DNA of 34,757 nt, taken from contig JACQGM010000354.1 of the NCBI GenBank assembly GCA_016199585.1, positions 1 through 34,757 on the forward strand, read 5' to 3'. The notes under the pieces are model-generated. The model had not been told where the DNA came from. It did no database searches and saw nothing but the letters and a program-made list of their open reading frames with translations. Numbering within the stretch: the first letter of the stretch is position 1; each line of letters opens with the position of its first letter. Positions 1 to 5,913 of the stretch are shown piece by piece. A program made the translations under genes and the position numbers. This stretch comes from Armatimonadota bacterium. Lineage in GTDB: Bacteria; Armatimonadota; JAAZEB01.

Positions 1-1
1 G

Positions 2-589
<588 letters not shown>

Positions 590-607
590 GAGCCAAGGGG
601 GTCTCCC

Positions 608-1822
608 ATTAGCGAACCGCGCCCCAAGCTCCGCCCGATAGAGGTGCGCCACGTCGTTGAGAACGGCCGCGCGCTGCTGCTCCTGCGCGACCCGTTGGCG
701 CTCTCCGACCGCGTGCTGCTGGTGCCGCAGTCGCTGGCGCCGGCGCTGGCGCTGTGCGACGGCACCCGCGACGCCGGCACGCTGGGAGCCGCCCTGGCGC
801 TTCGCTACGGGATCCGGGTTCCCACCTCCCGGCTGAGGGAGATGATCGCCACCCTCGACGAGGCGCTCTTCCTCGAAGGCGACCGCTGCGAACAGGCACG
901 GCGCGCGGCGCTGGCGGCCTACCGCGCCGCTCCCTTCCGCCCGCCCGCCCTCGCCGGCGCCGCGTATCCCTCCGATCCCGAGGCGCTGCGCGCCGCCCTC
1001 CAGGGCTACCTGGAGACAGCGGCCGCCGACGTGCAGCCCGCTCCCGAGGGCCGCGGGGTCCTCTCTCCGCACATTGACTACCCTCGCGGCGGCCCCGTCT
1101 ATGCCCGCGTCTGGAAGCGCGCGGCGGCGATGGCCCGCGCGGCCGACCTCGCCGTCATCCTCGGCACGGACCACCAGGGGGGCGAGGACCTGGCGACACT
1201 CACTCGCCAAAGCTACGCGACGCCCTACGGGGTGCTCCCCACTCCGCGGGAGGCGGTGGACGCCCTCGCCGCGGCCGTGGGCGAGGAGGCCGCCTTCGCC
1301 GGGGAGCTGCGCCACCGCAGCGAGCACGCCATCGAGCTGGCCGCGATCTGGCTGCACCACGTGCGCGGCGGAGAGGCGTGCGCCCTCCTGCCGATCCTCT
1401 GCGGCTCCTTCGTCCGCTTCGTCCGGGGCGAAGCGGACGCGGGCGAAGACGCGACCCTGACGCGGCTGCTGGCGGCGCTGGCGAGCGTCATCGCCGGCCG
1501 GCGCGCGCTGGTGATCGCCGCGGGCGACCTCTCGCACGTCGGCCCCGCGTTCGGCGGGCCGCCGCTCGACCTGAACGGCCGCGCCCGCCTCCGCGCCGCC
1601 GATGACGCGCTGCTGCGCCACGTGTGCGCCGGCGACGCCCCCGCCTTCCTCTCGAGCCTCCGAAGCGTATCCGACCGCAACAACGTCTGCGGCCTGCCGC
1701 CCCTCTACCTGGCGCTCCGCCTGCTCGGCTCTTCCGCCGGCGAGGTCGTCGCCTACGACTGCTGCCCGGCCGACGCCAGCGGCGCCTCCGTGGTCTCCAT
1801 CGCCGGCGTGGTCTTCTCGTAG
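608..1822 (+). CDS. amrB: AmmeMemoRadiSam system protein B (Memo family), probable ATT start
   Basis: Memo-family protein of about 404 residues. The Memo domain shows SPHIDYPRGG, a GTDHQGG segment, HRSEHAIELAAIWLHH and a late AGDLSHVG; these histidine/aspartate motifs are shared with MEMO1 and the extradiol-dioxygenase LigB fold. A ~100-residue N-terminal region (LRDPLALSDRVLLVP, LCDGTRD) is typical of the bacterial AmmeMemoRadiSam protein B, which normally works with a radical-SAM and an AMMECR1 protein of unknown reaction; those partners are not in view. The only conventional in-frame start is GTG 644, but it would remove PKLRPIEV, which I recall as conserved in the family. No ATG, GTG or TTG lies between the thiC stop and 644; ATT at 608 has an AGGGGG Shine-Dalgarno (596-601) six bases upstream. 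I therefore place the start at 608. Family call is firm, start is inferred. Confidence 0.88.
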   Translation: MSEPRPKLRPIEVRHVVENGRALLLLRDPLALSDRVLLVPQSLAPALALCDGTRDAGTLGAALALRYGIRVPTSRLREMIATLDEALFLEGDRCEQARRAALAAYRAAPFRPPALAGAAYPSDPEALRAALQGYLETAAADVQPAPEGRGVLSPHIDYPRGGPVYARVWKRAAAMARAADLAVILGTDHQGGEDLATLTRQSYATPYGVLPTPREAVDALAAAVGEEAAFAGELRHRSEHAIELAAIWLHHVRGGEACALLPILCGSFVRFVRGEADAGEDATLTRLLAALASVIAGRRALVIAAGDLSHVGPAFGGPPLDLNGRARLRAADDALLRHVCAGDAPAFLSSLRSVSDRNNVCGLPPLYLALRLLGSSAGEVVAYDCCPADASGASVVSIAGVVFS

Positions 1823-1991
1823 ACCCTGTGCGGCATCCTCCGCGATGGCGCGGATCTTGCACACTCGGCTGCCTGGTTTTCCTGATGAAGCACACCGCTG
1901 CCCGACAGCGCAGGGCGCGGGGATCACGGAGCGCCAGCGGGGCCGGTGGAGGTCACGGGCCGCCTCCGCTCCCGAACACCAGGAGGGTCTC

Positions 1992-2945
1992 ATGCAGATG
2001 GATGCACTGAGGGTTGGGGCCACCGCCGCCCCGGAGGCACCTGCCGATCAGGAGGCACCCGGGCGGCTCCTCTGGGCCACCGAACTCCTGCCCGCTGTCG
2101 CCCCGCAGCCGGGCGCGCAAGGCGGCGATCCGGCCGCTGGCGCCGGCCTGCCGACCGGCATGGCATCGCTGGACTCCCTGCTGGGAGGGCTGTGGCCCGG
2201 GCTCTACCTGCTGGAGGGGCCGCCGGGCATCGGGAAGAGCACCCTCGCCCTGCAGATCGCCCTGAGCGCCGCGCGAGTAGCCCCGGTTCTCTACGTGACG
2301 TTCGAGAACTCGCCGGCCGACCTCGCCCTGCGGTGGGTTGCGTCCCGCTCGCGCATCCCCCTGTCGGACCTGCGCCAGGGAACCGCGGATGCGGCAGCCG
2401 TCGGCCGCGTCATCGCCGACTCGGCGGCGGAGGCCGCGCGACTCGCGTTCATACCGGGCAACATCAGCCTGACGGTCGCCGCGCTCCACGCCGCGGCGCG
2501 CGCGGCGCTGCGCCGGCACGAAGCGCGGCGCTGTCTGATGGTGGTGGATTCCCTGCCGGTGTGGGCGGCGCACGGCGTGGATGTGGCTCACTGCGCCAGC
2601 TCCGCCGACCGGGCGGAGGCGCTCGCGATCCTGCTGCGCGAGCTGGGCGCCGCGCTCGATTCCCCGGTGCTGGGAGTCGCCGCGCAGGAAATGCGCGAGC
2701 GCGAGTCGGAAAGGGTCAGCACCCGGTTGACCACGCCCGAAGCCGTATCCGTGTCCGGGGGACTGGATGCCGTGGCCGATGCCGTGCTCATTCTGACGGA
2801 GGCGCGCACCCGGGGCGAGAAGCCGCCCGCGCGAGCGATAGACCTGGTGGTTGCCAAGAACCGGCGCGGCCCTTCCGGACGCGTCGAGTGCGTCTTCCGG
2901 CCGGACCTGGCCCTGGTGCGGGAATCGATGCTCCAGCGCCACTGA
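1992..2945 (+). CDS. RecA/DnaB/RadA-type P-loop ATPase, stand-alone
   Basis: Single-domain RecA-fold ATPase of 317 residues. Residues ~55-84 read GLPTGMASLDSLLGG followed by Walker A GPPGIGKST (76-84); Walker B is LMVVDS with the aspartate at 186; near the C-terminus is KNRRGPSG (289 on), the lysine/arginine motif of DnaB helicases and RadA that senses the neighbour's nucleotide in a ring. The zinc finger and Lon-like domain of RadA and the N-terminal domain of DnaB are absent; residues 1-50 are Pro/Ala-rich and probably disordered. The ATG at 1992 has an AGGAGG (1981-1986) five bases upstream. It probably acts on DNA as an oligomeric ATPase, but substrate and pathway cannot be told; KaiC-like signalling ATPases are an alternative. 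Neighbours (Memo, sugar isomerase) do not clarify the role. Confidence 0.85.
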   Translation: MQMDALRVGATAAPEAPADQEAPGRLLWATELLPAVAPQPGAQGGDPAAGAGLPTGMASLDSLLGGLWPGLYLLEGPPGIGKSTLALQIALSAARVAPVLYVTFENSPADLALRWVASRSRIPLSDLRQGTADAAAVGRVIADSAAEAARLAFIPGNISLTVAALHAAARAALRRHEARRCLMVVDSLPVWAAHGVDVAHCASSADRAEALAILLRELGAALDSPVLGVAAQEMRERESERVSTRLTTPEAVSVSGGLDAVADAVLILTEARTRGEKPPARAIDLVVAKNRRGPSGRVECVFRPDLALVRESMLQRH

Positions 2946-2969
2946 CCGAAGGCACGCAACGGAGGGGCG

Positions 2970-3722
2970 ATGGCGAACCCGAGGATCGGCGCCCGGTTGG
3001 TGATCTACGGCGATCGCTGGCAGCGCGATCTGCCCGCCGTGCTGCGCGAGGTCGCGCGCGCCGGCTATGACGGGGTGGAGGTCGGCGCGTTGAGGGAACA
3101 CTACACCGCCGAGACGGTGCGCCAGTGCCTCTCGGAAACCGGCCTGTCGCTGGCGGGAACGCGCGCGGAGTGCGCGGACCTGCGCGATCCGGCGAAGCTG
3201 AGCGCCCACCTGGACTTCGTGACGGCGCTGGGCGGATCCTACCTGACCTGCGCCGGAGTCGGTTCGGTCGAGGGGATCCACACCTACGAGCGCGCCGCCG
3301 AGACACTCAATGCCGCCGGCCGGGAGTGCCGCCATCGAGGGGTGATCCTCTGCTACGCCAACCAGGATCGGGACTTCGACCCGCTGGAGGGCGACCGGGG
3401 CATCCACCGCCTGGCGGAGCGCATTCATCCCCGGGAGGCGAAGCTGTGCGTTGACATCTACGGGATACACGCCGGCGGCGAGGATCCTGCCGCGTTCATC
3501 GCCCGCTATGCCGACCGCATCGCCTACTACCACGTCAGGGACGGCAACGAAGGCGGCGTCACCGAGCTGGGCCGGGGGAAGGTGGACCTGCCCCGCGCCA
3601 TCGAGGCGGCCCGGCGCACGAACCCCGACTGGTTGGTCTGCGCGCAGGAGCGGACGGAGAAGACCCCCGAGGAGTCGCTGGTCCAGAGCCGGCAGTACCT
3701 GCGCGACCAACTCGGGCTGTAG
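2970..3722 (+). CDS. Sugar phosphate isomerase/epimerase, xylose-isomerase-like TIM barrel
   Basis: Cytoplasmic TIM-barrel protein of 250 residues of the AP-endonuclease-2/xylose-isomerase-like family, whose members isomerise or epimerise sugars and inositols using a divalent metal. Seen directly: GYDGVEVG early strand, a CVDIYGIHAGG segment with Asp162 and His167, YYHVRDG with His188 and Asp191, and a late CAQER segment with a glutamate, matching the usual metal-ligand order (D/H, H/D, E). The start ATG 2970 has a GGAGGGG site (2961-2967). It lies 24 bases after the ATPase gene and ends 15 bases before the convergent VOC gene. Length fits the family. Substrate unknown; inosose or keto-sugar metabolism are possibilities only. 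Confidence 0.88.
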   Translation: MANPRIGARLVIYGDRWQRDLPAVLREVARAGYDGVEVGALREHYTAETVRQCLSETGLSLAGTRAECADLRDPAKLSAHLDFVTALGGSYLTCAGVGSVEGIHTYERAAETLNAAGRECRHRGVILCYANQDRDFDPLEGDRGIHRLAERIHPREAKLCVDIYGIHAGGEDPAAFIARYADRIAYYHVRDGNEGGVTELGRGKVDLPRAIEAARRTNPDWLVCAQERTEKTPEESLVQSRQYLRDQLGL

Positions 3723-4488: not shown

Positions 4489-5913
4489 ATGGTAAATGAG
4501 CAGTCCCCCCGAGGGTCCCCTCGCCTGGAGTACAAGTGGCGGGCGCTGGCAGCGGTGGCCATCGGCACCTTCATGTCCACCCTCGATTCCAATATCATCA
4601 ATGTATCGCTCCCCACGCTCGGCGGTGTCTTCTCGGCGGACCTGACCGTGGTGGAGTGGGTGGTGATGGCCTACCAGCTCACGGTGACCGGCCTGCTGCT
4701 CACCTTCGGCCGGCTGGCCGACATGCTGGGGCGCAAGCGGATCTACAACGTCGGGTTCGTCATCTTCACGCTCGGATCGCTGATGTGCGCCCTCTCGCGC
4801 AGCATCGGCGGCCTGATCGGGTCGCGCGTGCTGCAGGGGGTCGGCGCCGCCATGCTGGCATCGAACGGCACCGCCATCCTCACCGACGCCTTTCCCCGCT
4901 CGGAGCGCGGGAAGGCGCTCGGACTCAACGGCACGATCGTCGGCAGCGGCCTGATGATCGGCCCCCCGCTCGGCGGCCTCCTGATCGGCGCCCTGGGGTG
5001 GCGATCGGTGTTCACCATCAACCTCCCGATCGGGGTCGTGGGCATGCTCCTTGGCTACTACCTGCTGCGGCCGGATGAGCCGAGGCCGGAGCGCGAGCGC
5101 TTCGATGCCGCCGGGGCGCTGACCCTTCTCGTCGCCCTGACGAGCATCCTGCTGGCGCTGAGCCAGGGCGAGGCCTGGGGATGGAGCGCGCCGCCAACCC
5201 TGGGCCTGCTGGCGCTCTCGGCCGCAGGCTTCCTCGCGTTCGTCCTCACCGAGCTGCGCGTCAAACACCCGATGATGGACCTCGGCCTCTTCCGCAACCG
5301 TCTCTTCGCGGCGAGCAGCCTCAGCGCGCTCATCTCCTACATGGCGATCGCCACGGCAGTCTTCCTCATGCCCTTTTACCTCCACGACCTGCGGGGGTTC
5401 AGTCCGGCGCGAACCGGCCTGATCCTGGCGGTATCGCCCCTGACGATGATCGTCATCGCGCCCTTCAGCGGTTGGCTCTCCGACCGCATCGGCTCGCGGG
5501 TTCTCTCCACCCTCGGCATCAGCACCATCGCCACCGCGCTGGTGCTCCTCAGCCGGCTCACTCTCACGGCATCGGCGGGCGACATCGCCTCGCGCCTCTT
5601 CCTGGTCGGCGCCGGCAACGGCCTCTTCACCTCACCCAACAGCAGCGCCATCATGGGCGCCGTGCCCCGCCAGCGCCTCGGCCTCGCCGCCGGGATGATC
5701 TCCACCGTCCGCACCACCGGCATGGTCACCGGAGTGGCGATCGCCGGGGCGGTGGTGGCGGCCCGCCGCGCGGACTTCCTGGCGGCGGGCGCGGATCCGG
5801 CGCACGCCTTCGGCGGCGCCATTGACGCGGCGTTCCTGGTCGCCGCCGCCATCGCGCTGGCGGGCGCGGTGCCGTCACTGGTGCGCGGCAGGGAGGAACG
5901 GCGGGCCGAGTAG
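4489..5913 (+). CDS. MFS drug exporter, DHA2 (EmrB/QacA) family
   Basis: Inner-membrane proton-driven exporter of about 474 residues with the 14-helix layout of the DHA2 family. The N-terminus shows FMSTLDSNIINVSLPTLGG (helix 1 of EmrB/QacA proteins), then WVVMAYQLTV, motif A GRLADMLGRKR between helices 2 and 3, and motif C GSGLMIGPPLGG in helix 5, which marks antiporters. Three in-frame ATGs cluster at 4471, 4483 and 4489; only 4489 has a well spaced GGAG (4479-4482), so it is chosen. No adaptor (EmrA) or regulator gene is adjacent. Substrate is not predictable; efflux of drugs or metabolites is family knowledge. Confidence 0.93.
   Translation: MVNEQSPRGSPRLEYKWRALAAVAIGTFMSTLDSNIINVSLPTLGGVFSADLTVVEWVVMAYQLTVTGLLLTFGRLADMLGRKRIYNVGFVIFTLGSLMCALSRSIGGLIGSRVLQGVGAAMLASNGTAILTDAFPRSERGKALGLNGTIVGSGLMIGPPLGGLLIGALGWRSVFTINLPIGVVGMLLGYYLLRPDEPRPERERFDAAGALTLLVALTSILLALSQGEAWGWSAPPTLGLLALSAAGFLAFVLTELRVKHPMMDLGLFRNRLFAASSLSALISYMAIATAVFLMPFYLHDLRGFSPARTGLILAVSPLTMIVIAPFSGWLSDRIGSRVLSTLGISTIATALVLLSRLTLTASAGDIASRLFLVGAGNGLFTSPNSSAIMGAVPRQRLGLAAGMISTVRTTGMVTGVAIAGAVVAARRADFLAAGADPAHAFGGAIDAAFLVAAAIALAGAVPSLVRGREERRAE

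Follow-up and report, generated by a model that had tools for sequence, protein, structure and literature searches.

In our study, the Memo-family gene downstream of thiC in the window (the whole stretch of 34,757 nucleotides analysed, from an Armatimonadota bacterium) was found to be probably translated from AUU 608, where a strong and well-placed Shine-Dalgarno sequence would compensate for the weak codon. The source genome is a 5.38-Mb draft of 449 contigs and 80% completeness. The comparison within its class covered three genomes of one family, namely the window's own (G000), G001, and G002; the genomes searched included none from the genus of the source. The thiC frame stayed open past its TGA as far as the TAG at 1820–1822, and the first ATG, GTG or TTG codon in it was GTG 644. 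An earlier sequence-only reading had proposed ATT 608, which sits 18 nt after the thiC stop, as the start, and had stated that no ATG, GTG or TTG lies in frame at 590–643; the coordinates and the frame were checked and this statement was correct. An out-of-frame ATG at 579 overlaps the thiC end and opens a 20-codon ORF (579–641), the TAG of which (639–641) is found 2 nt before GTG 644. The features of the locus are given in Table 1.

Table 1. Features around the putative ATT start of the Memo-family gene (window positions).
Feature	Position	Strand	Remarks
thiC, 3' part (ThiC radical SAM)	2–589	+	stop TGA 587–589; same frame as the Memo gene
Putative 7-bp hairpin, 581–587 with 599–605	581–605	+	pairs the thiC end with part of the Shine-Dalgarno; stability not above shuffles
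Shine-Dalgarno AAGGGGGT, serving ATT 608	595–602	+	predicted anti-Shine-Dalgarno duplex −11.6 kcal/mol
Putative ATT start codon, Memo-family gene	608–610	+	
Memo-family CDS, ATT to TAG (1820–1822)	608–1822	+	404 codons and stop
PKLRPIEV, conserved N-terminal segment	623–646	+	last codon is GTG 644; motif in orthologues
GTG, first canonical in-frame start codon	644–646	+	judged internal Val13; no Shine-Dalgarno; residue 13 in beta strand 1
Memo domain	944–1810	+	profile match; Memo/MEMO1 structures top by fold

The start at ATT 608 is well supported by conservation 5' of GTG 644, the placement of the Shine-Dalgarno, near-cognate starts in relatives, and a structure model. The segment PKLRPIEV had been named in the sequence-only reading as part of the conserved N-terminus, and an alignment of homologues had been suggested as a check; in our alignment the conservation extended upstream of GTG 644, and the motif P[KR][LIMR]R of this segment was retained in 112 of the 123 orthologues assessed. 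The orthologue set consisted of the best matches and sixty picked from a larger match table; two further loci (L191, L222) with unalignable N-termini were dropped. All four proline codons and all six arginine codons were used in the motif across the orthologues, and this wide synonymous usage indicates that selection acts on the protein. The Shine-Dalgarno lies 5 nt upstream of ATT 608, as well placed as had been claimed. Its predicted duplex energy, computed against a generic anti-Shine-Dalgarno, was matched by 1.8% of 3000 random plus-strand 17-mers of the window, and the energies at GTG 644, ATA 638, and the out-of-frame ATG 579 were 0.0, 0.3, and 0.6 kcal/mol, respectively. The strong Shine-Dalgarno looked for in genes with IF3-discriminated starts is thus present at −11.6 kcal/mol, and conservation together with the Shine-Dalgarno points to a non-canonical start for which the homologous position offers no canonical codon instead. 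In the structure model, built from 8 sequences, beta strand 1 was formed by residues 12–18 counted from ATT, with GTG 644 as residue 13; a start at GTG 644 would lose the motif and just one residue of the strand. The mean pLDDT of the model was 87.2, with modest values near the start (62 for residues 1–10 and 83 for residues 11–20).

The absence of a canonical start codon is rare in the Memo family. A canonical codon was found within 13 codons before the motif in 119 of the 123 orthologues, and only three lacked one over the whole stretch from the in-frame stop to the motif, namely the window (ATT), G401 (ATC), and G302 (CTG), the latter two being Chloroflexota-type genomes. In G401 (L211) a gene with a confirmed penicillin-binding transpeptidase domain precedes the ATC, its stop lying 6 nt upstream; as a caveat, an A-run one base shorter would bring an ATG into frame. 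In G302 (L255) the CTG was present behind AAGGAGG, and three confirmed tRNA genes lie upstream on the opposite strand. G001, of the window's family, contained ATC behind GGAGG with a duplex of −11.8 kcal/mol, and a GTG 6 codons upstream of it was unsupported (+1.2). In G002, the remaining genome of the family, a TTG had a duplex energy of −12.9, and the value for an ATG located 3 codons further on was −2.5. The gene tree, made from about the first 105 residues, placed the four near-cognate cases on three branches, with a support of 0.83 for the window's family, 0.95 for a clade of three with G401, and 0.96 for a clade of three with G302; the clade mates of G401 and G302 carry ATG, GTG or TTG. 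The duplex energies of the four near-cognate sites ranged from −10.1 to −13.0 kcal/mol, against a median of −5.9 at the 119 canonical sites, of which 22 reached −10. The canonical medians were −4.7, −8.2, and −7.2 for ATG (n = 90), GTG (n = 16), and TTG (n = 13), respectively. The Shine-Dalgarno was stronger at near-cognate than at canonical sites (one-sided Mann-Whitney, 4 vs 119, p = 0.003), a value that is optimistic because the near-cognate codons were partly chosen by their Shine-Dalgarno. In PMC5622118, weaker start codons are reported to accompany stronger Shine-Dalgarnos, start-codon switches themselves are described as having no significant association with Shine-Dalgarno strength, and 61,358 ancestral AUG starts are stated to have changed to CUG in 2 cases and to AUU in 1.

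These data bear also on an AUU start without any regulation, in which a gene of low need has drifted to a weak codon and a stronger Shine-Dalgarno compensates. This explanation, the odds of which overlap those of our preferred one, has close to an even chance. ATG, GTG or TTG is present in close relatives of the near-cognate cases, and therefore the near-cognate state looks labile; moreover, the Shine-Dalgarno strength was graded by codon, in agreement with the compensation described in PMC5622118. On the other hand, the best-supported start was non-ATG in G001 (ATC) and G002 (TTG) as well, and the non-ATG start is therefore not only a one-off.

An error in the draft consensus is improbable. 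It would mean either that codon 608 is truly ATG, from which ATT differs by one base, or that the G-run at 597–601 is mis-sized and ATG 579, which overlaps the end of thiC in a different frame, is the start. The genome is indeed a draft; however, G001 of the same family also has ATC, not ATG, behind its Shine-Dalgarno, other relatives have ATC or CTG, and ATG 579 is devoid of a Shine-Dalgarno. A base-call error is possible but less likely than a real AUU start. Still less credible is a protein shorter by 12 residues that starts at GTG 644, possibly through reinitiation once the ORF running from ATG 579 to TAG 639–641 has been translated. Although GTG is a common start codon, no Shine-Dalgarno serves this one, the motif upstream of it is conserved, residue 13 falls within strand 1 of the model, and the Shine-Dalgarno placed for ATT would stay unexplained. 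Readthrough of the thiC TGA into a ThiC-Memo fusion, suggested by the shared frame with a single TGA between the genes, was rejected as extremely unlikely, since a frame match is expected one time in three by chance, a Shine-Dalgarno lies between the genes, and in the G001 and G002 drafts thiC and Memo are on separate contigs with different sequence upstream of Memo.

For translation from AUU 608, the preferred reading, the strong Shine-Dalgarno (AAGGGGGU) would hold the 30S subunit over the codon, and the initiator fMet-tRNA would read AUU, pairing at two positions, because the strong and well-placed Shine-Dalgarno makes up for the weak codon. The product would be a protein of 404 residues, in which some 112 N-terminal residues form a domain ahead of the Memo domain. 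Initiation at AUU 608 is presumably weak. IF3 would destabilise the AUU initiation complex, and the output would be low and track the supply of IF3. The rejection of AUU-type codons by IF3 is established for infC; the level of the Memo protein would therefore increase under a shortage of IF3 and decrease when IF3 is plentiful. An IF3-dependent level of this kind is a tentative proposal, and the near-cognate starts of the Memo gene and a few relatives hint at synthesis of the protein at a low and perhaps tunable level. Coupling to thiC translation may be possible at the window locus, given the distance of 18 nt, but it would not be the general reason, because no same-strand gene was seen directly upstream in G302 and the gene of G001 is distant from the preceding one. 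That the Memo branch represents a further kind of IF3-sensitive gene, with the recurrence on three branches favoured by low, IF3-tuned synthesis, is rather unlikely. If true, the synthesis of the Memo protein would be tied to the state of translation initiation.

No regulatory RNA structure was found in the regions folded. A 131-nt region was no stabler than its shuffles (z 1.20), and two shorter cuts containing the 7-bp hairpin over the Shine-Dalgarno gave z values of −0.48 and −0.33 against shuffles; both candidates were rejected. No Rfam match was found in window positions 1–3000. A GGGTCTC leader common to Memo and the next gene was dropped, as it had 46 matches in the sampled G000 sequence.

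Near-cognate starts are of a known kind, with infC, pcnB, and sigR as examples, and the Memo gene adds another member. In the three class genomes infC, encoding IF3, appears to begin at a near-cognate codon as well; the putative starts were ATC in G000 (L088) and G001 (L047) and ATA in G002 (L048), behind GGGAGG or AGGAGG. The arrangement of infC in the class is thus the usual one, and discrimination against AUU by IF3 is expected. The Memo gene resembles infC in its near-cognate start behind a strong Shine-Dalgarno, but such a start was present in 3/3 class genomes for infC and in 2/3 for Memo. The start of infC is described as ATT in E. coli and ATC in Streptomyces, and the gene as autoregulated by its own product (PMC5472188), whereas IF3 control of the Memo gene is suggested by analogy. 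The sequence-only reading had likewise hinted at control of the kind described for infC and pcnB, and this hint stays an analogy. The Memo gene also resembles sigR, a non-infC gene with a near-cognate start, which in the account of PMC5472188 has an extended Shine-Dalgarno and was misplaced by annotation. In contrast to the Memo gene, the near-cognate start of sigR is reported there as conserved within Streptomyces (GTC in 32 and GTT in 2 of 34 genomes), and its repression by IF3 from the GTC start as demonstrated by experiment. The pcnB gene of E. coli, which like the Memo gene codes for an ordinary enzyme, also starts at AUU, although pcnB is a different gene of a different organism. No report on the start codons of Memo genes was found among the openly licensed papers listed, as judged from titles and the beginnings of abstracts. 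Gene callers use ATG, GTG, and TTG, and genes with near-cognate starts are therefore shortened or missed; a call at GTG 644 would drop the conserved motif of the Memo gene, and infC would be shortened in all three genomes. Recurrent near-cognate starts in one family provide a compact case of whether such starts are regulatory or merely tolerated outside infC.

The background of near-cognate starts was examined in about 1.43 Mb sampled from the three class genomes, with 1019 ab initio genes. ATG was enriched behind Shine-Dalgarno sequences 5.7-, 5.5-, and 4.0-fold in G000, G001, and G002, respectively; no clear excess of ATT, ATC, ATA or CTG was found in the same samples. The seen/expected numbers for ATT, ATC, ATA, and CTG were 4/4.3, 22/20.8, 0/2.0, and 21/33.9 in G000, 1/5.5, 20/16.9, 3/2.6, and 11/23.0 in G001, and 1/2.5, 14/9.4, 0/1.1, and 14/14.3 in G002. 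TTG itself was hardly in excess (9/6.3, 12/7.9, and 2/3.8, respectively), and the codon-excess test is therefore blind to rare starts. Cross-genome homology before the first canonical codon flagged 12 of 102 genes (4/39 in G000, 4/44 in G001, and 4/19 in G002), consisting of infC three times, the Memo gene once, and 8 others. On realignment, seven of these 8 were alignments running past a shared or nearly shared start or not reaching upstream of the start, and one (L159, minus strand, 11373) was fragment-like. Of the 39 genes of G000 for which a homologue was available in another genome, infC and the Memo gene were those in which homology truly preceded the first canonical codon. A wider comparison covered 126 genes in which the N-terminal homology was usable; 27 were flagged, and four were convincing by eye, namely infC of the three genomes and the Memo gene. 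The other 23, among them the Memo genes of both G001 and G002, were read by eye as copies of repeats or insertion sequences, as probable antisense ORFs, or as short extensions over a Shine-Dalgarno. Besides Memo, infC is apparently the only gene found with a near-cognate start in the three sampled genomes. A scan for coding signal before the first canonical codon was noisy, with many likely antisense ORFs, and was dropped as evidence.

The protein matched the Memo profile PF01875 with 96.6 bits (cut-off 27) and AmmeMemoSam_B TIGR04336 (AmmeMemoRadiSam system protein B) with 92 bits (cut-off 26). The predicted model has the Memo fold, with Memo 3bcz_C at E 2.6e-15 and a TM of 0.76 by target length, and the domain starts at about residue 113 when counting from ATT. 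The metal ligands of MEMO1 are His, His, and Cys. H155, H189, and C361 were invariant in 8 Memo sequences and putatively correspond to these ligands; C244 of MEMO1 is named in the title of 7m8h. Compared with AmmeMemoSam_B/Memo, the window protein contains an additional N-terminal domain of about 112 residues that is weakly PqqD/RRE-like. For this domain (608–943) Pfam gave no match at E values up to 1, the N-terminal domain of a relative (L031) matched the PqqD profile at E 0.0028, under the cut-off, and by fold the domain showed a weak likeness to TbiB1, a RiPP recognition element, with a Foldseek E of 0.09 and a probability of 0.96. The protein may be a Memo-RRE-like fusion.

Genes from the class to which the Thermoflexus genome G291 belongs (L203–L228) were up to 61% identical to the Memo gene (608–1822), against 56–57% for the two other members of its own family and at most 38% for other families of its own phylum in near-full-length matches, which suggests that the Memo gene was horizontally transferred. 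Downstream of it (1992–3722) the window contained a DnaB_C/RecA-like ATPase gene, beginning by eye at ATG 1992, followed by an AP_endonuc_2 gene; an AP_endonuc_2 match was likewise present downstream of Memo in G001 (L041). On the minus strand of the same G001 locus, at about 4940–5040, the 19-nt sequence GTCGAGGTTCTCTTCAGCT from the last part of the gene upstream, which looked helicase-like, was seen by eye to be repeated directly before the Memo gene, as if it were a remnant of a duplication or insertion.
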